This document shows positions 1,574 to 18,465 of a stretch of DNA of 47,268 nucleotides, piece by piece; within the stretch, counting starts at the first letter, position 1, and each line of letters begins with the position of its first letter. The stretch is from the NCBI GenBank assembly GCA_030145625.1, contig JAQYVF010000032.1, positions 1 through 47,268 on the forward strand. Reading direction: 5' to 3'. The notes under the pieces are model-generated. The model saw only the letters and a list, made by a program, of their open reading frames with translations. It was not told the origin of the DNA and searched no databases. The position numbers were made by a program, and so were the translations under genes. The DNA is from Desulfocapsa sp. (GTDB taxonomy: Bacteria > Desulfobacterota > Desulfobulbia > Desulfobulbales > Desulfocapsaceae).

Positions 1574-3892
1574 ATGAAGCTAAACAGAAGATCATTCATT
1601 AAGTCTGCCGCTGCAGGTAGTGCGATTGCTGCCGCTGGTTCAATCTTCCCTGGTATCAGCTTTGCCGGCTGGCAGAAACAGGAAGATGCATCCGGAAACA
1701 TAACCTGGCAAAAAGCTCCCTGCCGTTTCTGTGGCACCGGTTGCGGGGTATTGGTCGGTATGTCCGGAGACCGTGCCGTTGCCGTTAAAGGGGATCCGAA
1801 TTGCAGTGTAAATAAAGGGTTATGCTGTGTGAAAGGATTCCATTCTGTTCAGGCGCTGTATGGCAAGGATCGACTTAAAAAAGCACAGGTCCGTAAAAAT
1901 GGCAAAATGGTTGAAGTACCCATTGCCGAAGCTTTGGATGTTATTGCCGACAAGATTAAAGAAACCATCACAAAACACGGGAAAGATTCCGTTGCCATGT
2001 ATGGTTCAGGGCAGTGGACTATTCCGGATGGATATGTGGCATCCAAACTGTTTAAAGGCTGCCTCGGTACCAACAATGTTGAGGCCAATGCCCGACTTTG
2101 TATGGCTAGTGCGGTCACCGGTTTTATGACTTCCTTTGGTATTGATGAACCCATGGGCTGTTACGAGGATATCGAGCATGCCGATGTTTTTGTTACCTGG
2201 GGTAATAATATGGCGGAAATGCATCCGGTTCTTTTTTCTCGGATGCTGGCCAGTCGTAAACGCAAAAGAGATGTTACCATTATCGATTTTGCAACCCGTA
2301 CCACCCGTTCCAGCCAGGCGTCTGATAAATCCATACTCTTCAAACCCAATACAGATCTGGCGGTTGCCAACGCCATCTGTTACGAAATTATTCGCAATGA
2401 CTGGGTTAACTGGGACTTTGTCAAAAAACATACCTCTTTTCATAAGGGTAAAACCAATATTGGCTATGGTACTGAAGATCATTTCAGTTTCAAGGATAAA
2501 CCTGAAGATATCTCTTTTGAGGAGTATAAGACGTTCCTACAGGATTACACACCAGAAAAGGTGGAGAGAATCTCAGGCGTCTCCGCTAAAGATATAAAAT
2601 ACCTGGCATCTCTGTATGGCGATCCGAGCAAGAAGGTAACCTCCTTCTGGTGCATGGGAATGAATCAGCATGTGCGAGGTACCTGGATCAATAATCTTGT
2701 CTATAATATTCATCTGCTTACCGGAAAGATTTCCACCCCTGGTAACAGCCCCTTCTCTCTCACCGGTCAGCCGAGTGCCTGTGGAACGGTTCGTGAAGTA
2801 GGTACCTTGACCCACAAACTGCCGTATGGCGTTGTTATGAAGGAAGGTGCTCGCAAAAAGGCTGAGAAGATTTGGGGTTTGCCAGCCGGTTCCATTGATC
2901 CGAAACCGACCTATCACACGGTGGAGATGTTTCGTGCTCTTGATCGTGGTGATATCAGGTTTATGTGGATTCAGGTGACCAACCCTATGATTACCATGCC
3001 CAATCTGAATCGTTACCGGGACGGAGCCTTAAAAGAGGACCGTTTTGTTGTCGTTTCCGATGTCTATCCGACTCCAACCACTGATGTCGCTGATGTAATT
3101 CTGCCTGCAACCATGTGGGTTGAGCAGGAGGGCATGTATGGCAACTCTGAGCGTCGTACCCAGCATTTTGACCGGATTGTTCCTGGTCCTGGGGACACCA
3201 TGTCAGATACCTGGCAGATCATTGAGGTTGCCAGAAGGCTCGGTTTCGAGAAGCAGTTCCCTTGGGGAGAAGATGAATATATCGGCAAAATCTGGGAAGA
3301 ATACAGACAATTCCACGATAATCCCAAACACAATATGGCCCCATACGAGGTCCTTAAGGCCAGATCCGGGGTGCAATGGCCCTTTGTTAATGGCAAAGAA
3401 ACCAGGTGGCGCTTTAATACCAAGCATGATCCTGCCTGTAAAAAAGGAACCGATTTTGATTTCTATGGCAAAAAAGATGGCAAGGCTTGGATATGGGCCC
3501 GTCCCTACGAGCCTGCTGCCGAGTCGCCGGATCAGGAATACAATTTCTGGCTCAATACCGGCCGGGTCATCGAGCATTGGCATACCGGTTCTATGACCCG
3601 CAGGGTCCCTGTTCTCCATAATGCTGTACCTGAAGCTTATGTGGAACTAAACCCGGAGGATGCTTCAGATCTCGGTGTGGTAAATGGTGAAAAGGTAAAA
3701 ATTATCTCCAGACGTGGTTCGGTGACCATGAAGGCCTCAATCAACGGCCGAGGGGTGCCGCCGAGGGGTATGGTTTTTGTGCCGTTTTTTGATGAATCCT
3801 ACAAGATCAACGAAGTGACCTTGGATGCTTTCTGCCCGATTTCAAAGCAGCCTGATTATAAAAAATGTGCAGTTCGACTGGAGAAAGCATAA
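1574..3892 (+). CDS. napA: NapA, periplasmic nitrate reductase catalytic subunit
   Basis: NapA reduces nitrate to nitrite in the periplasm using a bis-MGD molybdenum centre and one [4Fe-4S] cluster. The 772-residue protein starts with a twin-arginine signal (NRRSFIKSAAAG) and an Ala-rich hydrophobic stretch. Cluster ligands are Cys50, Cys53, Cys57 and Cys84 in CRFCGTGCG...LCCVKG. Cys176 in ANARLCMASA is at the position of the molybdenum-ligating cysteine, and the C-terminal molybdopterin dinucleotide-binding domain is present (NTGRVIEHWHTGSMTRR). Length is close to the monomeric Desulfovibrio NapA (about 755). Electrons probably come through the tetraheme cytochromes that follow. Its stop overlaps the next start (TAATG). 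A nitrate rather than another oxyanion substrate is inferred from NapD and the NapA-like sequence. Confidence 0.9.
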   Translation: MKLNRRSFIKSAAAGSAIAAAGSIFPGISFAGWQKQEDASGNITWQKAPCRFCGTGCGVLVGMSGDRAVAVKGDPNCSVNKGLCCVKGFHSVQALYGKDRLKKAQVRKNGKMVEVPIAEALDVIADKIKETITKHGKDSVAMYGSGQWTIPDGYVASKLFKGCLGTNNVEANARLCMASAVTGFMTSFGIDEPMGCYEDIEHADVFVTWGNNMAEMHPVLFSRMLASRKRKRDVTIIDFATRTTRSSQASDKSILFKPNTDLAVANAICYEIIRNDWVNWDFVKKHTSFHKGKTNIGYGTEDHFSFKDKPEDISFEEYKTFLQDYTPEKVERISGVSAKDIKYLASLYGDPSKKVTSFWCMGMNQHVRGTWINNLVYNIHLLTGKISTPGNSPFSLTGQPSACGTVREVGTLTHKLPYGVVMKEGARKKAEKIWGLPAGSIDPKPTYHTVEMFRALDRGDIRFMWIQVTNPMITMPNLNRYRDGALKEDRFVVVSDVYPTPTTDVADVILPATMWVEQEGMYGNSERRTQHFDRIVPGPGDTMSDTWQIIEVARRLGFEKQFPWGEDEYIGKIWEEYRQFHDNPKHNMAPYEVLKARSGVQWPFVNGKETRWRFNTKHDPACKKGTDFDFYGKKDGKAWIWARPYEPAAESPDQEYNFWLNTGRVIEHWHTGSMTRRVPVLHNAVPEAYVELNPEDASDLGVVNGEKVKIISRRGSVTMKASINGRGVPPRGMVFVPFFDESYKINEVTLDAFCPISKQPDYKKCAVRLEKA

Positions 3893-4545
3893 TGAAAGAA
3901 GCAGATAAAATATTAGGCAAAGTTGTTACTGGTTTTGCCGCTATCTGCTTAACCGGAGCCTTGTTGACGCTGCCTGCAGATGCAGCGCCCGATATTCCCC
4001 AGGGCTTTGATTCAGATGGCGAAAAGATCTTTAACAGGTTTGATGAAACCCCTTTAGCAGCTATGACTGGAACAGACGGTAAGCGAACCCTGGATGTGTA
4101 CTACGAACTTCGTCAGTATCCTGGTTCACCACCACGGGTTCCCCATGATGTTCCGCTTTCTTTTTCAGGGGATACGATGAAATGTCTCTCCTGTCACGGT
4201 AGAGGCGGCTACGATGTCAATCAGAATGCCTATGCTCCCGTCACACCGCATCCTGAATATGAGAGCTGCGCTCAATGTCATGTGCCACGACGCACAGAAG
4301 AGCTTTTTGTGGAAACTGAGTGGCAGTCAATAGAGCCCCCTAGGCTGGGGAGGTCGGAAATGGGTGGGTCACCTCCGCCCATTCCCCACAGCTTGCAGAT
4401 TCGGGAAGATTGTATCGCCTGCCATACTGGCCCTGCCGCTGTGGCAGAAATTCGGGTTGAGCATGGATCGCGCGGCAATTGTCGTCAATGCCATGTTCCC
4501 ATGATAGCTACCGAACCCAGGAAAGAATTTACCAGAAACAATTAA
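3892..4545 (+). CDS. Periplasmic tetraheme cytochrome c of nap operon (NapB/NapM-like)
   Basis: The 218-residue product has an N-terminal hydrophobic export signal (residues 10-33, ending ADA) and four CxxCH heme sites: CLSCH, CAQCH, CIACH and CRQCH. Sites are arranged as two pairs, each preceded by a proline-rich IPH or VPH motif, the spacing seen in diheme NapB, so it may be a duplicated NapB-like fold. The ATG overlaps the napA stop codon by one base, implying translational coupling. The likely job is passing electrons to NapA. Desulfovibrio nap operons carry a tetraheme NapM in a similar place, but I cannot confirm orthology. Confidence 0.75.
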   Translation: MKEADKILGKVVTGFAAICLTGALLTLPADAAPDIPQGFDSDGEKIFNRFDETPLAAMTGTDGKRTLDVYYELRQYPGSPPRVPHDVPLSFSGDTMKCLSCHGRGGYDVNQNAYAPVTPHPEYESCAQCHVPRRTEELFVETEWQSIEPPRLGRSEMGGSPPPIPHSLQIREDCIACHTGPAAVAEIRVEHGSRGNCRQCHVPMIATEPRKEFTRNN

Positions 4546-4564
4546 TCAGGAAGATAGAACAGTT

Positions 4565-5182
4565 ATGAAAAAACTATTTTTTTGTTCTAGCCTGCTTTTT
4601 CTTGTGCTGGGAACAGTGCTCCTGTCATGGCAGGTCATCATGGCCTCCGGAAGTTCAGTTATGGATCGCATCCATGATGCTGATGAGCCTTTTGATAATA
4701 CGAAAATTGAGTCAGCTCATTCCTTGTCGGTTAAAACAGTGCAGGCAAAAGAATCCTATCAGGGAGGTGCTTTCAGAGTGCTTGCCCGCAAGGATTCTAT
4801 AACTCGATTCCGTTGCAGCGTTTGTCATACGGATAAGGTGGTACAGGTCAGAAACGGCGTCTTGTTTACTCATGGTGATATAGAAATCAACCATGGAAGA
4901 GGGGACGATAAGTTGGCTTGCATAGAGTGTCATGATGAGGATGATCGCGATTTTCTCTCTGATGCGGAGGGAAAGAAGATAGATTTCGATCACAGCTATC
5001 AACTCTGTGGTCAGTGTCATTTTCGCCAGAAGCGGGACTGGTTGGGCGGTGCCCATGGGAAACGCGATACATATTGGGCTGGAGAACGGGTGGTGCGAAA
5101 TTGTACCAGTTGTCATAGTCCACACTCCCCTGCCTTTGAAACAAAAATGCCAGTGACCTACTCGCTGCCATTGGACGAGTAG
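4565..5182 (+). CDS. Exported multiheme (tetraheme) cytochrome c
   Basis: The 205-residue protein begins with a clear hydrophobic signal or anchor (FFCSSLLFLVLGTVLLSW). Four heme sites follow: CSVCH, CIECH, CGQCH and CTSCH. Additional histidines (FTHGDIEINHGRG, FDHSYQLC, GGAHGKRDT) could be distal ligands, giving bis-His hemes. It sits between the NapB/M-like cytochrome and the Fe-S protein with gaps of about 20 and 7 bp, so it is part of the nap operon and probably bridges the membrane quinol module to NapA. It lacks a clear NapC/NirT signature, so its partner is inferred. Confidence 0.7.
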   Translation: MKKLFFCSSLLFLVLGTVLLSWQVIMASGSSVMDRIHDADEPFDNTKIESAHSLSVKTVQAKESYQGGAFRVLARKDSITRFRCSVCHTDKVVQVRNGVLFTHGDIEINHGRGDDKLACIECHDEDDRDFLSDAEGKKIDFDHSYQLCGQCHFRQKRDWLGGAHGKRDTYWAGERVVRNCTSCHSPHSPAFETKMPVTYSLPLDE

Positions 5183-5189
5183 GTGGGCT

Positions 5190-6152
5190 ATGAAATCCAG
5201 CAGAAAAAAAGAAGGCCAGATGAAAATAAAAGATATGCTTGAAAATAAAAGCAGCCGCAGATCCTTCATGAAAAAGTTGTCCATTGCTGCTGCTGCCGGT
5301 TCTGCAGGGCTTGTGACAGGAGGATGTGGTTCTCTCGAAAGCAGCGAAGAGATGGGGCTGAAGTGGGAAGAGTATTTCAAGAAAAACTATCGGTTGATGA
5401 CTCAGGAAGAAAAGGATGAAACCGTTGCCCGTTTGGAAAGACTTTTTAAACTTCGGATGGACGAAAACATTCAAATGTCCAACCAGGAACCACGGGAAAA
5501 TGTGCTGTTTGGCTATGCCTTTAATATCTCCCGCTGCAAGGGCTATATGGATTGTGTTGAGGCCTGTGTAAAAGAGAATAATCTTGACCGTAAAGCCAAG
5601 ACTCAATACATCCGCCTCTTTGAAATGGAATCCGGTAAACTTGATCCAACATCAGGAGATGGCAAATATCATCATGAAGTTCCGGTGGAGAATAAATTCT
5701 ATATGGGAGTCCAATGTTATCATTGTGAAAATTCCCCATGTACCAAGGCCTGCCCGACCAAGGCCACCTGGCGTGAGCCGGACGGCATCGTTGTGGTAGA
5801 TTACGATTGGTGCATTGGTTGTCGTTATTGCCTGGCTGCCTGTCCCTATTGGGGGCGTCGTTTTAACTGGGGTGAGCCTGAAGTGCCCAAGGAAGAGATT
5901 AACAAAAAGCAGCATTATCTCGGCAACCGCATGCGGATGAAAGGTGTCATGGAAAAATGTACTTTCTGCGTACAGAGAACTCGTCAGGGCAAGCAGCCGG
6001 CCTGTGCTGACGCCTGTCCCACTGGTTCCAGAGTTTTCGGCAATCTCCTCGACCCGGATAGTGAGATCCGTTATGTCCTTAAGCACAAGAAGGTTTTTCG
6101 GTTTAAGGAGGAATTGGGGACTGATCCAAAATTTTGGTATTTTATTGATTGA
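5190..6152 (+). CDS. Four-cluster [4Fe-4S] ferredoxin-like subunit (NrfC/DmsB type), Tat-exported
   Basis: The protein carries a twin-arginine signal (SRRSFMKKLSIAAAAGSAG) followed by GGC, which may be a lipobox cysteine. Sixteen cysteines fall in the DmsB/NrfC-type order: CKGYMDCVEACVKEN, CYHCENSPCTKACPTKA, CIGCRYCLAACPYWG and CTFCVQRT...CADACPTGS, enough for four [4Fe-4S] clusters. Such subunits partner NrfD-type membrane proteins, one of which is encoded next. It should relay electrons from the quinol-oxidising NrfD-like protein to the cytochromes. A second possible start is ATG 5220, which leaves a tidier signal peptide. Spacing to the upstream cytochrome gene is 7 bp. Confidence 0.85.
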   Translation: MKSSRKKEGQMKIKDMLENKSSRRSFMKKLSIAAAAGSAGLVTGGCGSLESSEEMGLKWEEYFKKNYRLMTQEEKDETVARLERLFKLRMDENIQMSNQEPRENVLFGYAFNISRCKGYMDCVEACVKENNLDRKAKTQYIRLFEMESGKLDPTSGDGKYHHEVPVENKFYMGVQCYHCENSPCTKACPTKATWREPDGIVVVDYDWCIGCRYCLAACPYWGRRFNWGEPEVPKEEINKKQHYLGNRMRMKGVMEKCTFCVQRTRQGKQPACADACPTGSRVFGNLLDPDSEIRYVLKHKKVFRFKEELGTDPKFWYFID

Positions 6153-6173
6153 TAGTAACGGGCGAAAATAGAT

Positions 6174-6340
6174 TACCGTTAGTAACTATTCAGCTAATGC
6201 TTAATAACTGGCGAACAACCGCTCTGTAACTGTTTAGCAGTGCTTTATATTCGTTCAGTTAGGACTTCGAAGCATACTAGTGCTATTCGAGAAGACCTAA
6301 ATGGACGAAGATGAAGTGCTGCTGAATAGTTACTACCGTT
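6174..6340. repeat. Long imperfect palindrome inside the nap operon
   Basis: The 218-bp gap between the Fe-S gene and the NrfD-like gene is mostly one large inverted repeat. The outer arms GTAACTATTCAGC (6182-6194) and GCTGAATAGTTAC (6321-6333) are perfect. A second pair of 28-nt arms (6236-6263 and 6296-6323) matches at about 22 positions, and the centre (around 6264-6295) also folds on itself. It carries no frame worth calling. It could be a MITE-like insertion or a structured processing site that adjusts expression of the last operon gene. It is unrelated to the six-copy MITE family in this window. Confidence 0.6.
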
Positions 6341-6370
6341 ATTTGTATTGACCACCCTAAGGAAGAAATA

Positions 6371-7594
6371 ATGATTACGAGCCCTAAAAAAGGAATTCCT
6401 GCTTTTATCTCGGACTGCACCCGTTGGGCACTGTCCGGGGGAATAGGATTCAAGGTATATCTTGTTGTTCTGCTGGCTGTGATAGGCGTTGGTGCATTTT
6501 CCTACGTAAAGCAGTTTCAAGAAGGCCTGATCATCACCGGCATGTCAGATATAGTCAGCTGGGGATTGTATATATCTAATTTTACTTTTTTTGTAGGTGT
6601 TGCAGCCGCAGCAGTCATGCTGATCGTGCCCGCCTATATATTAAAGGATAAGGATTTGCATGAAGTTGTTATCATAGGAGAATGTGTGGCTGTGGGTGCA
6701 CTGATCATGTGTCTGATGTTTATCACAATGGATATGGGCGGGCCATTGAAGGTATGGCATATGATACCTGGAATTGGCCTGTTTAACTGGCCTTCCTCCA
6801 TCCTTACCTGGGATGTGCTGGTGTTAAATGGGTATTTGGCCTTAAACAGCCTGGTGCCTCTGTACATCCTTTACTGTAATTACCACAATAGAGAACCTGT
6901 GGGCTGGAAGTATAAGCCTTTTGTTTTTCTGTCGATTTTCTGGGCTGTCTCCATCCATATGACAACAGCTTTTCTCTATCAGGGACTGCCTGCCAGGCCA
7001 TTCTGGAACAATCCGTTGCTTGGGCCTCGCTTTTTGGCTTCAGCCTTTGCTGCTGGACCAGCCGTAATTATGATGGTGCTTATTGTCATTAAACAGAAGA
7101 CCCGGTACCCGGTTGACATAAATATTTTCTTTAAATTAAAGAGAATTATTGTTGTTTCCGCGATTATCAACCTTTTGATGTTGTTCTCTGAGATTTTCAA
7201 AGAATTTTATACATTCACGCACCACAGTCTTTCTGCTCAATACCTTTTTTTCGGGCTTGAAGGACATGACTCACTGGTGCCATGGATATGGACTGCCATA
7301 GGCCTCAACATTTTCGGAACATTGCTTTTTTCTTTTGATCCAACGAAATGTAATCCGCGTTATCTTATGGTAGCAGCAATAAGTCTGTTTACCGGGATCT
7401 GGATTGAAAAAGGTTTTGGTCTTATTATTCCTGGTTTTATACCTTCGCCTATGGGTGAGGTTGTAGATTATACCCCGACCTCCAATGAGATTCTTATTAC
7501 ACTTGGGGTACTGGCAACTGGTGTGTTGGTGGTGACTTTACTTATCAAACCGGCTCTAGCTATTCTTATTAGATATAAAGAATCCAATGCGTGA
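6371..7594 (+). CDS. NrfD/PsrC-family membrane quinol dehydrogenase subunit
   Basis: The 407-residue protein is almost entirely hydrophobic, with about ten predicted membrane spans and short polar loops. It starts with a soluble segment, then GGIGFKVYLVVLLAVIGVG. Motifs typical of NrfD-like subunits include the span-2 region SWGLYISNFTFFVGVAAAA and the MDMGGPLKVWHMI turn. These proteins exchange electrons between menaquinol and a periplasmic Fe-S subunit, here the preceding ferredoxin. The pair would replace NapC or NapGH as the route from quinol to nitrate reductase. A GGAAG lies about 6 nt before the ATG. The gap of over 200 bp upstream suggests partly separate expression. Confidence 0.85.
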   Translation: MITSPKKGIPAFISDCTRWALSGGIGFKVYLVVLLAVIGVGAFSYVKQFQEGLIITGMSDIVSWGLYISNFTFFVGVAAAAVMLIVPAYILKDKDLHEVVIIGECVAVGALIMCLMFITMDMGGPLKVWHMIPGIGLFNWPSSILTWDVLVLNGYLALNSLVPLYILYCNYHNREPVGWKYKPFVFLSIFWAVSIHMTTAFLYQGLPARPFWNNPLLGPRFLASAFAAGPAVIMMVLIVIKQKTRYPVDINIFFKLKRIIVVSAIINLLMLFSEIFKEFYTFTHHSLSAQYLFFGLEGHDSLVPWIWTAIGLNIFGTLLFSFDPTKCNPRYLMVAAISLFTGIWIEKGFGLIIPGFIPSPMGEVVDYTPTSNEILITLGVLATGVLVVTLLIKPALAILIRYKESNA

Positions 7595-8055: not shown

Positions 8056-8229
8056 GTTAGTCATAACGACCTTATTCTGTTAATATCCTTTTGTATCGGT
8101 TTCTATTTACTTTCCTGCAATGACAAAAAATACATCGCGCGTTAAAGATTGTCTGAGTGAGCTGTGCATATAAGGCCGATACACTGTGTTGCTTTTGTTG
8201 AGGATGTCTGGCGTTAAGGAGGATTAACA

Positions 8230-8718
8230 ATGTATTACGATATCATGGAGTCAGTACTTGGTCCCATTCTTTTGGGCCATAATGGAGAGGGCATCAATCG
8301 GGTGCATTTTCTTGGCTCTCCTAAACCGTCACCGAAAATTGATAATTGGAAAAAACTTAGTCGAGATCCATTACTCCAAAAAGCCCGTAAACAATTAGAA
8401 GCCTATTTTTCAGGTAAACGGCACCATTTTTCATTGCCACTCTCATTTGAGGGGACTGATTTTCAGGTACGAGTCTGGAAGGCACTCATCACTGTCCCTT
8501 ACGGAACAACTTGGTCTTACAAAGAACTCGCCATTGCAATCGGAAATCCAGCAGCTTGCCAAGCCGTTGGTGGTGCGAATGGTAAAAACAGGCTATCCGT
8601 TATTATACCCTGACATCGAGTCATTGGAAGCGACGGGGGCCTCGTCGGATTTGGAAGTGGGTTGGAAAGAAAAAAATATTTGATCGAATTGGAACAGGCA
8701 CAGATAAGAACAGAATAA
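8230..8718 (+). CDS. ogt: O6-alkylguanine-DNA alkyltransferase with predicted selenocysteine at the active site
   Basis: The enzyme removes alkyl groups from O6-alkylguanine in DNA by transferring them irreversibly to an active-site residue. Reading through one in-frame TGA (8611-8613) gives a complete 162-residue protein. The part before it has the methyltransferase fold (FQVRVWKALITVPYGTTWSY, then AVGGANGKN). The part after it has the canonical end (HRVIGSDGGLVGFGSGLERK). The family signature is PCHRVIG, and the TGA falls precisely on that catalytic Cys, giving P-Sec-HRVIG. A hairpin with a G-rich loop follows 17-34 nt downstream, as for bacterial SECIS elements. The start is supported by AAGGAGG 7 nt upstream. 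A nonsense mutation of TGT or TGC to TGA would look similar, but the intact downstream frame and hairpin favour Sec. Confidence 0.8.
8611..8653 (+). promoter_or_regulatory. Predicted bacterial SECIS element with UGA codon
   Basis: From the UGA at 8611, a hairpin forms at 8631-8647: stem CGACG, seven-base loop GGGGCCT, stem CGTCG. A short lower helix can extend it (GAA with TTT across an internal loop). The apical loop begins 23 nt after the UGA and starts with G residues, consistent with the described bacterial SECIS constraints. SelB binding is inferred. Confidence 0.6.
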
Positions 8719-9087: not shown

Positions 9088-10206
9088 TCAAGAATCCATC
9101 AACAATATTTGAACCCCAGGTATACTGGAGCCCGGAAAGGTGACATGGTCCCTTAGCCAAAAGAATACACCGAGTGCTGAGGATTTGTCATTGCCGCCAA
9201 GGGCTTGACCATTGCAAAGGATCGTCACATACCACCCTTTGTATCTGCCAGCCCATGCGGTGAAATACGTATAGTATTCGCCGTTATGACCGATGGCGCC
9301 ATTCCAGGAAAGAATTCCCAGGCCATAGGTCATATTCGGGTTTGCTGTGGGTTTGAGATCGAGCCTTTCCTTCTGCATCTGGCTCGAAATCAAATCGCCC
9401 CGGATAAGTGCTTTGACCCATTGCATCAATTCCCGACCCGTGGACACCACAGAGCCAGCCGCTCCTGCAGGAGAGGGATCAATGGAATACGTGGCATCAC
9501 GCAACACACCTTCATCATAATTATATCCATGAGCATGAGGAAACGGGATCTGGAGTGATTCCTGAACATACGTCCTTTGCAGTCCCAACGGCACCACAAT
9601 ACGCGTACGGATATTTTCGGCATAGGAGATTCCCGTCAGCTTTTCTATGATCATGCCCAACAGGATATAGTTGGCATTGTTGTAATCGAAAACGGTTCCA
9701 GGGGCGGCAACTTCCCAATTGGAATACTCTACCAATTCCGCAGGCGTCCAGACCCGTTTCGGAGTGTCAGATAATATTTTCAGAAATTGCGGGTTGCTAA
9801 GATAACTCCCAAGCCCGCTATGCATGCCTAACAAATGCCGCATGGTGATTTTGGAAGAGTTAACGACAATACCAGGAAAAAGACTTTCCAAAACAGTATC
9901 CAGAGTCAATTTCCCCTGGTCCACCAATTGAAGGACAATGGTAGCTGTCATGGTTTTCGTCACACTGGCTATGTACAGACTGAGATCCGCAGTCATTGGC
10001 GTATCCGGATACTCAGCAACACCCGCAACGCCGGTCCATTTGCTACCGGCATCGTTCTCCACTACCACTATCGCTCCAGGAATTTTCAGGTGTTGCAGGC
10101 TTACTTCCAATTCCCGTTGCAGATCATTGAAAAATTGCGATGTGTCAGCCAAGGCTTGCGTCACCAGAAGAAGGAAAACCAACACGGACAGGAAACAAGA
10201 GCGCAT
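9088..10206 (-). CDS. Exported serine beta-lactamase-like hydrolase (class C / DD-peptidase family)
   Basis: The 372-residue protein has a Sec signal peptide (FLSVLVFLLLVTQALA) and the serine beta-lactamase fold. SVTK (around residue 82-85) is the SxxK motif with the nucleophilic Ser and general-base Lys, YNN in DYNNANYILLG is the YxN motif, and GHNGEYY is the KTG-equivalent HxG box. Family members act on D-Ala-D-Ala peptides, D-amino-acid esters or beta-lactams, and substrate cannot be read from sequence. It is transcribed opposite to its neighbours, with MITE copy B just upstream of its start (10277-10418), so the MITE lies in its promoter region. The extreme C-terminus after FFWLRDHV does not resemble the family closely and may be slightly frame-altered. 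Confidence 0.8.
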   Translation of the reverse strand: MRSCFLSVLVFLLLVTQALADTSQFFNDLQRELEVSLQHLKIPGAIVVVENDAGSKWTGVAGVAEYPDTPMTADLSLYIASVTKTMTATIVLQLVDQGKLTLDTVLESLFPGIVVNSSKITMRHLLGMHSGLGSYLSNPQFLKILSDTPKRVWTPAELVEYSNWEVAAPGTVFDYNNANYILLGMIIEKLTGISYAENIRTRIVVPLGLQRTYVQESLQIPFPHAHGYNYDEGVLRDATYSIDPSPAGAAGSVVSTGRELMQWVKALIRGDLISSQMQKERLDLKPTANPNMTYGLGILSWNGAIGHNGEYYTYFTAWAGRYKGWYVTILCNGQALGGNDKSSALGVFFWLRDHVTFPGSSIPGVQILLMDS

Positions 10207-10422: not shown

Positions 10423-11195
10423 CCCCAGTAATCATATCAGGTCAGAAACAATATGATTATTAGTATTTCTCATAGTCATCCAAAAAGCAAGAGGGGAAGT
10501 CACTCTCTAACAGCAGCGGCCTTCCATGATCAACTAGAAGTTTTTCCCTCTTCAATACTCTCATTCCCATGAGTGACGGGTTCTCCGTATGTTTTTTCTT
10601 TCCACTGTATTTCAGTAGGATAAGATTTGGGCGGACCCGAGGATGGTGCCCGCCCTGGCCAGAAACTGCATGATTGCTCCTCTGCAGTGCAAGTAAAATA
10701 TTCTTTTCTTCTCTTGGGAACGGGCAAGGTGATACTCTTTACCTATGGTCCAGATACAGGAAGTCAGTCGAAAGGTTTTGGTCCGGTGGTGATGGTAGTG
10801 AAATCCGCGGTTCTCCTCATTTGCCCGGTAAGTTGGAACATCTCCTAGTCTTCCTGGAAAGAAAAAGAGTTATGAAGCCGTTGACGACGGCAGGGCAGGC
10901 TATGAATATCCTGTTTTCGACAGAGACTGATGGCCGGTTGTGGGGGGCTTATGGTTGTTGCCCTCGTCTGTGACTGGGGTTGTGCTTTTCTCTTTGGTAT
11001 TTTGTCAACAGAAAGCGAATTCTTATCTCTTTACTTGGCGGTCACTGAGGCAGTGTCGGTTTCATCCGGCAGAATTAGCAAGGGCTTGGTTGATCATGAT
11101 TGTTGTGCGGAATGGTCTCTGAAATCAAGGTGTTATCTTTGTGGTACTTTGTCTGAAACAAACAGTTTTTTTATCATTTTATCAGGTTATCACTT
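10423..11195. other. Gene-free stretch of about 770 bp
   Basis: Several short open frames exist on both strands, but none has a convincing ribosome binding site, a known motif or a family-like sequence. A 65-codon minus-strand frame at 10530-10727 starts only at TTG. I see no RNA gene, terminator or repeat apart from the flanking MITE. It may be the remains of lost genes. Confidence 0.5.
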
Positions 11196-14598: not shown

Positions 14599-14700
14599 AG
14601 AGCGCACAAAACGATTCTGGCCGGTTTCCGGTGTCGCTAAAAGTTTTTCAAAGAGTCCTTTACTTTCCATGCGGGTTTTAATATATCAATCATAATTGAG

Positions 14701-14795
14701 CTGGGGGTGTCCGGAAGCGTTTTTCGGACTGAGACGGATCGAGATATCCAACCCTTTGAACCTGATGCAGTTTGCACTGCCGTAGGGAAGCTGTG
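14701..14795 (+). promoter_or_regulatory. TPP riboswitch (thi box)
   Basis: The leader holds the conserved thi-box blocks in order: GGGGGTGTCCG, CTGAGA (14729-14734), CCCTTTGAACCTGATGCAG, then the closing CACTGCCGTAGGGAAGC. It is followed 25 nt later by an intrinsic terminator, so thiamine pyrophosphate binding should stop transcription of the thi genes. Confidence 0.95.
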
Positions 14796-14819
14796 AAATA
14801 GATATTTTTTCGCAATTCA

Positions 14820-14974: not shown

Positions 14975-15169
14975 ATGTTTTTTGTCAGCAACGAAGTAAA
15001 AACGTGAATTAGCCAACCCCACCGTTTTCGGGATCCTGTAGAGAGAGCAGGATGTTGACTCCGTGGACGTTAACACAAGGGTGGGGTTATCTTTTGCCAA
15101 GAATTTGAATAAACCGTACTTGGAGAGAACGCCGTTTTTGAGGTGTTCAAATTCATAAGGGGAGAATGA
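14975..15169 (+). pseudogene. thiS: Decayed thiS (thiamine sulfur-carrier protein)
   Basis: ThiS is a ubiquitin-like sulfur carrier of about 65 residues with a C-terminal GG tail. Here an ATG behind a strong GAGGAGGT starts MFFVSNEVKT. A TGA follows at 15005, then SQPHRFRDPVERAGC, a one-base insertion, DSVDVNTRVGLSFAKN, a second shift, then [18 protein letters not shown]. The stop overlaps an ATG (ATGA) at thiG. The repaired length is about 65 residues, as expected. One nonsense codon and two frameshifts make it non-functional. The final GG has become GE, which would also abolish the thiocarboxylate. thiG and thiH remain intact. Confidence 0.7.
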
Positions 15170-15174
15170 GAAAA

Positions 15175-15969
15175 ATGGATAAATCGAACAGTAACGATCT
15201 ATTGACTATTGGTGGTATTGGCCTTGAGAGCCGCCTTTTTACGGGGACAGGCAAGTACCCCTCTGACGCCATGATCCCGGAGGTCATAGAACGCTCGGGT
15301 TCACAGGTGATCACCGTGGCCTTGCGGCGGGTGGACTTTGCTGCCGGCACGGAGAATATCATGGATTTTATCCCTCAATCGGTTCAGTTGCTGCCCAATA
15401 CCTCCGGTGCCCGGACAGCCGAGGAGGCGGTGCGCATCGCGCATCTGGCACAGGCCGCCGGTTGTGGAAACTGGATCAAGATTGAGGTGATTTCCGACAA
15501 CCGCTATTTGCTTCCCGATGGCTATGAGACGGTGAGGGCCACCGAAATTCTGGCGAACGAGGGCTTTGTGGTATTACCCTATATTAACGCGGACCTGATG
15601 GTGGCGCGTAGCCTGGTGGATTCGGGCGCTGCCGCCGTCATGCCTCTGGGGGCACCCATCGGTTCTAATCGCGGCCTCCGGACAGAGGAGATGATTAGAA
15701 TTCTTATTGAGGAGATCAAACTGCCTATTATCGTCGACGCCGGTATCGGCAAACCTTCCGAGGCCTGCGCAGCCATGGAAATGGGTGCTGCTGCCTGTCT
15801 GGTTAATACCGCTATTGCCGGTGCCGGCGTGCCGGCAATTATGGCCGAGGCCTTTGGTCATGCCGTCCGTGCCGGTAGAGCTGCATTCCTGTCGGGCCCC
15901 GGTGCGTCCCGTAAGACGGCTGCTGCTTCGTCTCCCCTCACCGGCTTCCTCGAAGGGGGGACCCAATGA
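15175..15969 (+). CDS. thiG: ThiG, thiazole synthase
   Basis: ThiG builds the thiazole ring of thiamine from deoxyxylulose phosphate, dehydroglycine from ThiH, and sulfur delivered by ThiS thiocarboxylate. It folds as a TIM barrel. The product has [11 protein letters not shown] (Schiff-base lysine region), [23 protein letters not shown], and the phosphate-binding end [20 protein letters not shown] then NTAIA. The length is within the normal 255-270 range. A possible upstream ATG at 15166 is only 1 nt from the Shine-Dalgarno-like GGGGAG, so 15175 is preferred. It overlaps thiH by 4 bp. Expression is under the TPP riboswitch. A sulfur carrier must come from elsewhere because the adjacent thiS is broken. 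Confidence 0.92.
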
Positions 15970-17090
15970 CGGATTTTTACGAATATTACAAAACCTGGCG
16001 GGATTTTTCGTTCGTGGAGTATTTCAGATCCGTGTCTGAAAGTCGGGTGGCGGCAATCTTGCAAAAAGAGCGCCTGAGTGAGATTGATTTTCTGGCTCTG
16101 CTTTCTCCCGCTGCTGAAGGACTCCTGGAGGATATGGCGCAGAGATCCCGTGATTTGACCATCCGTAATTTTGGTCGGTCGGTGCTGCTGTTTACCCCTA
16201 TGTATCTCTCCAATTACTGCACGAACCGGTGCGTCTATTGTGGCTTCAATGTCGATAACAGCATCATGCGGCATCATCTCTCTTTTCCCGAGGTGGAAAG
16301 GGAGGCGGAGGAGATTGCCAAGAGCGGGTTGAAACATATATTGCTACTCACCGGAGAGGATAAGCGCCGTGCCTCCATTGAATACCTTTGTCACTGTGTT
16401 CGCATTGTCGAGAAATATTTCACCGCCATTGGCATCGAGATCTATCCCCTCGAAACTGAAGGATATAGAACGCTTGTGGAAAACGGAGTGGATTCTCTTA
16501 CTCTCTTTCAGGAGACGTACAATGAGACGCTCTACAAAAAATTGCATCCTGGAGGTCCCAAACGAAACTATCGGTATCGGTTGGCTGCTCCGGAAAGGGG
16601 ATGTGCAGCCGGTATGCGGGCAGTTAACGTGGGGGGCCTCCTGGGGCTGGACGACTGGCGGCGAGAGTCGTTTTTCACCGGCCTCCATGCGGACTGGCTG
16701 CAGAGTCGCTGGCCGGAGGTGACGGTGGGTTTTTCTCTGCCTCGAATGCGTCCCCATGCCGGGACATTTCAACCGGATTTTCCCATCTCCGATCGACACC
16801 TGGTACAGGTGATGACGGCTCTTCGTCTGTTTATGCCCCGTGCAGGGATCACCATCTCCACGCGGGAAGGGGCTCAATTCCGGGACAATATCCTGCCGCT
16901 GGGTGTAACAACGATGTCTGCGGGCGCCAGCACAGCCGTGGGAGGCCACTCTCGGGAAGAGGCGGACAGTACCAGTCAGTTTGATATCTCTGATGAAAGG
17001 AACGTTCAGGAAATGGCCGAGGCCCTTAAAGGGTTTGGGTATCAACCGGTCTACAAGGATTGGCATCCCATTGGCGGGATCCTTTCATGA
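15966..17090 (+). CDS. thiH: ThiH, radical SAM tyrosine lyase (2-iminoacetate synthase)
   Basis: ThiH cleaves tyrosine by a radical SAM mechanism to give dehydroglycine for thiazole formation, plus p-cresol. The 374-residue protein has the CX3CX2C cluster site in [11 protein letters not shown], then LLLTGEDKR, an [19 protein letters not shown] stretch, and the C-terminal [22 protein letters not shown] overlaps the thiG stop (ATGA), indicating coupling. Use of ThiH rather than glycine oxidase ThiO fits an anaerobe. No thiF or thiE follows in this window. Confidence 0.92.
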
Positions 17091-17230: not shown

Positions 17231-17303
17231 TATAATTTAAAAGCCAAACTTTGAGTGATCAAAGGACGGAAAACTACGGGGCTATAACAGTCAGCCGGGT
17301 TGC
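17231..17303 (+). promoter_or_regulatory. Promoter and c-di-GMP-I (GEMM) riboswitch aptamer
   Basis: A TATAAT box (17231-17236) puts the transcription start near 17243, with only a weak -35. The RNA then carries GEMM-I signatures: GCCAAAC, a CTTTGA-GTGA-TCAAAG helix capped by a GNRA tetraloop, GGACGGAAAACTACGGGGCTA, and AGCCGGGTTGC, which corresponds to the 3' strand of the second helix. The short 5' strand leaves a weak P1. The 3' strand also forms half of the terminator, so ligand binding should favour expression. Confidence 0.7.
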
Positions 17304-17329
17304 AACTTTAATGCAGCTCGGCTTTTTTT
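17293..17329 (+). terminator. Intrinsic terminator overlapping the c-di-GMP aptamer
   Basis: AGCCGGGTTGCA pairs with TGCAGCTCGGCT (two G-U pairs) across a seven-base loop and is followed by seven T residues. The left arm (17293-17304) is also the 3' strand of the aptamer, so the two folds exclude each other. This is the layout of a transcription-ON switch. Confidence 0.8.
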
Positions 17330-17622
17330 GTTTCATTTGAACGTACTGTTTTTAGCATTGTTTGTGAGATGTCTTCACTGGTATTTATCTGTCATCTTGC
17401 TTTCTCTGCTAACGCTTGAGAGCGTGTATAACAAAGTTTTTCGAAATCAGGACACAGGGGTATTTCAGGGCGGGATGAATAGTAAAAAGCCCTTAGTTCG
17501 GTCGTGAAAGGATCAACCTTTTTCCACAATAATAGTGAACATGATTCATGGTCAGGGGGCCAGGACAGTAATTGATTTGCGTTCTGGATAATTTTAAAAA
17601 TGAAAAGGTCAGAGGTGAAAGT

Positions 17623-18465
17623 ATGCAAGAAACCAGAAGAAATTTTTTAAAAGCTGGGTGTACTGTAGTTGCAGGTGCAACCGTTGCAAGTGGCATTAAC
17701 CTGTTGAATGTGAAATCCGCAAAGGCCACCTCCGCTGAACATCCTTATGGTTGGCCAGTTGAAGGACTGGATGTTGAGGAAACTAAAGAGTTGGGCTACC
17801 TTGGTTATAAGGGAGATTCTCGTTTCAGTATTGACGCTGGTAAAGATTGTGCATCAGGAACCTTTGGGGCCATTGTTGGTCAACTCCAAGAGGCAGTGGC
17901 GGATGATCTGGAGCATCCATATCATGGTATTCCGTTAGCCATGATGCAGTGGGCATCCGGAGGTGTTGCAGGATTTGCTACACTTTGTGGTGCAATCAAC
18001 GGTGCCTGCGCTGCCATTGGTCTCGTTTGCAGTAATAGTGAGGCAAAAGCTTATATAGCAGACCTGTTAACCTGGTGTTCAGAAACAGCCCTGCCGATCT
18101 ATCCGTCGCCTAACTATGAAGAACCTCATGCTCAATCGGTAGCGGGATCTAATCTCTGTCATGTATCAGTAACAAACTGGTGTCTTGCTTCAGGATATGC
18201 AAGTGGCTCATCCGAACGTTCTGATCGTTGTGCCTGTCTCACTGCTGATGTTGCCTCGAAGGTTGTTGAGATGCTGAATGACGGCGTTGGTGGTGTGCTT
18301 GGGAATCCCCGTGACAATAGCACGGTTTGCGGTGCCTGCCATTATAAGGGGCCTGACTATGATGCCGGGCAATTTACGCGTGGTAAGATGAATTGTCATT
18401 CTTGTCATGTGACCATTTCAAAGGCCTCAGAGAATGGGCATCATCTTGGTATTATAAATAAGTAG
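17623..18465 (+). CDS. Split-Soret cytochrome c (diheme, Tat-exported)
   Basis: The protein resembles the split-Soret cytochrome c of Desulfovibrio. It has a twin-arginine signal (ETRRNFLKAGCTVVAGA), then a C_GCAxxG-type domain rich in Cys, Gly and Ala (CASGTFGAIVGQL, GGVAGFATLCGAINGACAA). The C-terminus has two heme motifs, CGACH and CHSCH. In Desulfovibrio the protein is a dimer with stacked hemes and an Fe-S site, tied to nitrate or sulfur respiration. ATG 17623 follows AGAGGT, and a 17-codon upstream extension has no signal value. It is preceded by a c-di-GMP-I-like riboswitch with an overlapping terminator, suggesting control by c-di-GMP. There is no cotranscribed partner. Confidence 0.82.
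   Translation: MQETRRNFLKAGCTVVAGATVASGINLLNVKSAKATSAEHPYGWPVEGLDVEETKELGYLGYKGDSRFSIDAGKDCASGTFGAIVGQLQEAVADDLEHPYHGIPLAMMQWASGGVAGFATLCGAINGACAAIGLVCSNSEAKAYIADLLTWCSETALPIYPSPNYEEPHAQSVAGSNLCHVSVTNWCLASGYASGSSERSDRCACLTADVASKVVEMLNDGVGGVLGNPRDNSTVCGACHYKGPDYDAGQFTRGKMNCHSCHVTISKASENGHHLGIINK

Follow-up and report, generated by a model that had tools for sequence, protein, structure and literature searches.

The gene at positions 8230-8718 (forward strand) of the window, the whole stretch of 47,268 nucleotides of Desulfocapsa sp. DNA that was analysed, is with a probability of roughly 0.92 a selenoprotein form of O6-alkylguanine-DNA alkyltransferase (MGMT/Ogt), in which UGA would be read as selenocysteine (Sec) and the Sec residue would act as the suicide acceptor. 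The frame consists of 163 codons, from an ATG at 8230 to a TAA at 8716-8718, and would code for 162 residues. It contains a single in-frame TGA (8611-8613), which is codon 128 and falls on the catalytic Cys position of the family, so that the motif would read P-U-H-R-V. A Shine-Dalgarno-like AAGGAGG (8216-8222, forward strand) lies 7 nt 5' of the ATG. After the TGA the frame runs on as HRVIGSDGGLVGFGSGLERKKYLIELEQAQIRTE to the TAA, and these 34 codons are normal for an alkyltransferase.

With the TGA read as Cys, PF02870 matched residues 1-72 (E 1.2e-12, 48.6 bits, cut-off 21) and PF01035 matched residues 77-156, a region which spans the TGA (E 1.1e-30, 105.7 bits, cut-off 27). The TIGR00589 score of the read-through product was also above the cut-off. 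The best solved relatives were Ogt-type alkyltransferases (4bhc, E 5e-39, residues 2-158), with PCHRV aligned to the TGA site, and the fold of the window protein can be assigned because the structures of such homologues are known. The predicted read-through product is a complete two-domain O6-alkylguanine-DNA alkyltransferase. It was claimed in an earlier note on this DNA that the TGA lies exactly on the catalytic Cys of PCHRV, and the frame, the Pfam matches and the structure alignment all bear this out. The window protein shares the two-domain layout, the motif and the Asn, His and Glu residues with Cys-containing Ogt/MGMT proteins (4bhc, the E. coli Ada domain 1sfe and human AGT 1eh6), and differs from them in having a Sec codon at the catalytic Cys. 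Another difference is the Arg which follows the Asn, where 36 of 39 Cys rows have Pro. Gene calling that halts at UGA would give a 127-residue fragment without the active site. At E 0.001 the host genome has no PF01035 match other than the window gene; therefore, gene callers that take UGA as a stop would score the genome as one without an alkyltransferase.

The TGA was compared with the corresponding codon of the relatives, as the earlier note had proposed. Of 47 fetched best-match loci, 45 have Cys at the residue aligned to codon 128, and the remaining two, the window and a genome of the same family (G030), have a stop there, namely TGA. A nonsense mutation or a miscalled base could turn a Cys codon into TGA and leave no useful product, and both TGC and TGT are only one base away from TGA. 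We consider such a pseudogene or assembly error very unlikely. The TGA is on the one catalytic codon and there is no other stop in the frame. Columns conserved in at least 90% of 39 Cys homologues were kept by the window gene in 20 of 24 cases before the TGA and in 10 of 11 after it. Three of these columns (the P before, and the H and R after) belonged to the motif filter by which the rows were chosen; without them, 19 of 23 columns are kept before the TGA and 8 of 9 after it. The placement of the TGA is unlikely to be due to chance, because a single step would turn 23 of the 163 codons of the window gene into TGA, and because in 93 genomes of the family each of the four genuine in-frame TGAs among the window-gene matches is on the catalytic Cys. 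On the other hand, the end branch of the window row has a length of 0.77, where the median is 0.2, and relaxed constraint could produce such a long branch as well. The closest row in the tree is a Fusobacterial Sec row that is only 47% identical over 148 columns, and the window is thus without a near relative for a test of selection.

A decayed gene would also have to be found in a genome which, by all indications, recodes UGA in other genes. The host genome (4.98 Mb in 229 contigs, with a listed completeness of 100% and a contamination of 1.26%) was searched for selA, selB, tRNA-Sec and selD as the earlier note had advised, and all of them are present. A lack of selB and tRNA-Sec had been named there as the result that would speak against selenocysteine; selB was found with 374 bits, above the cut-off, and tRNA-Sec with 73 bits (gathering score 47), the latter being reported by ARAGORN as tRNA-SeC with anticodon tca. 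The selA gene (491 bits) is cut by a contig edge. Two different selD genes exist, at G000:C120:48950-49891 and C211:62964-63893 (L055 and L056), each with one in-frame TGA. In both the TGA is near the N-terminus within G-U-A-A-K, which we take to be the position of the SelD active-site Cys, and the hairpins after both pass the bSECIS rules described below. There are in addition three long FdhA-type matches with one in-frame TGA each; two of the three are above the FdhA cut-off and the site was read in one (L083). The presence of selB, tRNA-Sec, selA and two selD genes, together with the in-frame TGA in the SelD and FdhA matches, makes it very probable that the host organism recodes UGA.

The same UGA-for-Cys swap was found in ten other genomes, all with tRNA-Sec, and this again speaks against a nonsense mutation or a sequencing fault. 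Six of the ten carry full-length homologues (G030 of the same family, four Fusobacteriaceae and one Clostridiales MAG) and four carry short forms made of the C-terminal domain only. A pattern scan of 84,980 species, with one genome per species, gave 7 matches, of which 5 were real Sec alkyltransferases: the Clostridiales MAG (L047) and the four Fusobacteriaceae, including Propionigenium maris DSM 9537 (L050). The other two (L048 and L052) were chance matches and not alkyltransferases. A match to the window gene was present in 83 of the 93 genomes of the window's family, and six rows had a stop. Four of these six have TGA on the catalytic Cys, namely the window and G030, which are full-length, and G007 and G487, which are short. 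Two rows were rejected as Sec forms: the stop of G464 is its normal terminator, and that of G452 precedes the start of an alkyltransferase-like frame which has Trp at the site. In a search for the short form in 146 genomes of the order, the top rows (G051, G555 and G487) were Sec forms with TGA at the Cys, and among the matches listed five more rows were flagged with stops (G053, G552, G527, G564 and G533). In a sample of 395 genomes of the phylum, the only match to the long-form pattern was the window itself; this pattern is not suited to the short form, and the sample did not include G030. A PF01035 survey of 297 genomes recorded best matches only and is unfit for counting TGA forms.

The short Sec forms (L076 of G007, L077 of G487, L085 of G051 and L086 of G555) are about 100 residues long and have an in-frame TGA in EVP-U-HRVVA, at the same PF01035 Cys as the window. 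All four have Asn eight residues before the UGA. Unlike the full-length window protein, they consist of the C-terminal domain alone and form a separate clade. In G051 the short Sec form is the only PF01035 match among the matches listed. The tRNA-Sec was above the gathering score in 10 of 10 other carriers of either form as against 5 of 14 control genomes, and selB was above the cut-off in 8 of 10 carriers as against 2 of 14 controls, with partial matches only in G555 and G593. A locus close to the short Sec form (L097, G041:C123, about 10568-10804) lacks the RRN-to-GTA stretch with the UGA and the hairpin while the frame is kept; this gap may be a deletion, decay or an assembly fault. A mobile or viral Sec alkyltransferase found no backing in the viral contigs, where five pattern matches were inspected by eye and had no alkyltransferase frames. 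Whichever acceptor residue they carry, 24 phage records contain relatives of the full-length protein and 249 plasmid records contain relatives of the short form. When codon usage was scanned along the window for other genes with read-through, one weak candidate came up; the scan is uninformative because the MGMT/Ogt gene itself was left unflagged.

A bSECIS-like hairpin, CGACGGG-GGC-CUCGUCG, is present after the UGA at 8631-8647 (forward strand), with a stem of 7 bp (8631-8637/8641-8647). An alternative fold has 5 bp and the loop GGGGCCU, 17-34 nt past the TGA, and the distance from UGA to loop is 24 nt in the 7-bp fold and 22 nt in the 5-bp fold. By published bSECIS rules the stem should have 4-16 bp and the loop 3-9 nt, there should be a G in the first two positions of the loop, the distance from UGA to loop should be 16-37 nt, and the minimum free energy should be -7.5 kcal/mol or lower (PMC13188914). 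Only unbroken stems were scored here, and the energy is that of the stem-loop alone. At -7.6 kcal/mol the window hairpin agrees with all these rules, narrowly. A bSECIS check had been called for in the earlier note, and against its outcome stand 422 of 5000 synonymous recodings, which pass the rules too. Likewise, the five-bp stem with a G-rich loop 17-34 nt past the UGA, which had been put forward as SECIS-like, does exist, but by itself it is weak evidence: a hairpin of the same geometry and at least the same stability was seen in 409 of 5000 recodings of the window (8%). Fold z-scores against shuffles (-0.22, 0.55 and 0.05) were no better than chance. With z-scores near zero and so many recodings as good, the hairpin was rejected as stand-alone proof of Sec, and that it lies within chance is what one would also expect of a pseudogene. 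The hairpin is consistent evidence and not proof, because shuffles fold as well and 8% of synonymous recodings match it.

Among full-length genes the bSECIS rules were passed by 3 of 7 Sec genes as against 4 of 39 Cys homologues, and among short genes by 0 of 4 Sec and 0 of 2 Cys genes. The recoding test was repeated in relatives with 3000 recodings each and codon weights taken from the G+C of the locus. The counts were 22 for L039, 302 for L047, 465-563 for the four Fusobacteriaceae and 1144-1429 for the four short forms; L039 is the only tested relative whose hairpin stands out alone. The four Fusobacteriaceae have a 6-bp hairpin (stem GUAAGU/ACUUAC) with its loop 19 nt past the UGA, which fails the energy rule. 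In these four, synonymous codons have stayed unchanged in 5 of 6 cases within the hairpin and in 4 of 15 cases beyond it (Fisher p 0.046, with the region set post hoc).

The acceptor column was masked for the tree, which holds 52 rows. The motif filter dropped six of 52 loci from the tree and the counts (L034, L043, L044, L045, L046 and L064), all of them Cys, and it was passed by 6 of 15 short-form loci (4 Sec and 2 Cys). The Sec label changes five times on the 52-row tree, and at least three of the changes are forced by well-supported branches. A tree that unites the seven full-length Sec rows in one clade, set among 39 Cys rows, was rejected with a p-AU of 0.005, and one that unites all eleven Sec rows, set among 41, with a p-AU of 1.4e-5. 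By these two values one ancestral Sec form is rejected for all the sampled rows, in a tree with long branches and sparse sampling. The short Sec forms make one clade (support 100/94), and G030 pairs with a Cys form of its own family (98/80). A clade of the window and G030 was rejected as well (p-AU 0.0002). More than one origin of the Sec swap in alkyltransferases is thus supported, as a clade of all Sec rows was rejected for the rows sampled. The window row attaches to the tree without support. A clade of the window and the four Fusobacteriaceae was not rejected (p-AU 0.12), and because of this value and the identity of the window to the Fusobacterial Sec row mentioned above, the two may share a Sec ancestor or may be connected by transfer.

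A Cys alkyltransferase takes the alkyl group on its Cys once and is then spent. In the mechanism that we propose for the window protein, the UGA at 8611-8613 would be decoded as Sec by the ribosome with SelB and tRNA-Sec, and the hairpin at 8631-8647 could serve as the SECIS and help in the insertion. Sec128 of PUHRV, beside Asn120, His129 and Glu155, would attack the alkyl group of an O6-alkylguanine flipped out of the DNA. The alkyl group would stay on Sec128 as a selenoether, so that each molecule would carry out a single repair, like the Cys enzyme. We infer from the sequence that Sec is inserted in the cell, that this hairpin works as the SECIS, and that the protein repairs DNA by a suicide mechanism.

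A protein with the alkyltransferase fold could instead be using its selenol for redox or sensing chemistry and not for alkyl transfer, and thiol-type oxidoreductases do make up 33 of the 51 selenoprotein families listed in GOS (PMC2398784). This seems even less probable than a pseudogene. Asn120 (8587-8589, forward strand), eight residues before the Sec, is the equivalent of Asn137 of human AGT, for which a role is described (PMC4150793), and it is present in 7 of 7 full-length Sec rows and 39 of 39 Cys rows. The Glu at +27 is kept in the window and is likewise conserved in 39 of 39 Cys rows, and the His at +1, a filter column, is kept too. As read from the translation, there is no Cys within three residues of the Sec, which also argues against redox chemistry.

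UGA-Sec codons generally compete with termination, and a shortage of selenium should therefore yield truncated product. That the UGA is a true stop or a switch, giving a 127-residue product on purpose or the full-length protein only when selenium is available, is nevertheless the least credible of the alternatives, as truncation loses the acceptor residue and a part of PF01035 whose sequence after the UGA is conserved. A selenium-dependent level of the full-length protein would not contradict the reading of the gene as a Sec alkyltransferase.

The Sec alkyltransferase is already known as a kind of predicted selenoprotein, and the window gene is one more case of it. The statement in the earlier note that Sec members of the family had been reported from metagenomes was right: in the GOS study of 2008 the family appears with a single selenoprotein, present in one sample, beside 2,879 Cys homologues (PMC2398784). 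Two reviews list a Sec 'methylated-DNA-protein-cysteine methyltransferase' with ABB14497.1, and both cite for it a 2007 paper (PMC1976440) on the Olavius algarvensis symbiont (PMC9312934, PMC13188914). This published family (MDPCM) resembles the window protein in being PF01035 with a predicted Sec, a likeness drawn from its description. Algae have an 'MDP' selenoprotein, which is eukaryotic where the window protein is bacterial, and which is set beside it by description (PMC7539508). In a report on marine deltaproteobacterial selenoproteins a term search of the main text did not find the alkyltransferase family named (PMC8318568). In the open-access literature no paper was found that joins Fusobacteria, selenoprotein and the alkyltransferase name, and among the matches listed there was nothing on short or alkyltransferase-like Sec forms. 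The Fusobacterial and the short Sec forms may be unreported, given that this search found none. To this the present analysis adds a count of relatives, support for more than one origin, and the short Sec form.

An engineered human AGT with Sec145, which is the residue equivalent to that of the window in the same family, is active in E. coli, where it carries out DNA repair in vivo and protects against MNNG (PMC4150793). The earlier note supposed that Sec would be the more reactive suicide acceptor, which may apply to the window protein. It was made with a UAG/EF-Tu system, in contrast to the UGA, SelB and SECIS of natural forms. Asn137 is dispensable in the human Sec145 protein (PMC4150793), whereas the Asn is kept in all seven full-length natural Sec forms. 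Most of the known selenoprotein families function in thiol-redox chemistry, and Sec in a DNA-repair acceptor that works only once poses the question of why the costly Sec should be spent. It could be imagined that Sec entered alkyltransferases repeatedly, both in full-length proteins and in a short form which seems not to have been described, since a selenolate acceptor would offer what Cys cannot: transfer that is faster or covers more kinds of alkyl group, or even turnover, if a thiol or selenol of the cell regenerates the enzyme; we regard this as a doubtful though not negligible idea. The natural Sec forms (seven full-length and four short, one of them from Propionigenium maris DSM 9537) open the way to a matched comparison of Sec and Cys enzymes.

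The MGMT/Ogt gene is situated between a molybdopterin oxidoreductase cluster (1574-7594) and a convergent gene of the beta-lactamase fold (9088-10206). The cluster comprises a molybdopterin subunit, cytochrome c, a 4Fe-4S protein and NrfD, and its catalytic subunit, which lacks an in-frame TGA, scores under the FdhA cut-off. Further along the window a TPP riboswitch (14693-14805) is present upstream of thiG (15166-15969) and a radical-SAM/BATS gene (15966-17090). A c-di-GMP-I-GGC riboswitch at 17234-17308 (60 bits, gathering score 59) lies upstream of the gene at 17572-18465, which codes for a putative redox protein of the C_GCAxxG_C_C type (PF09719).
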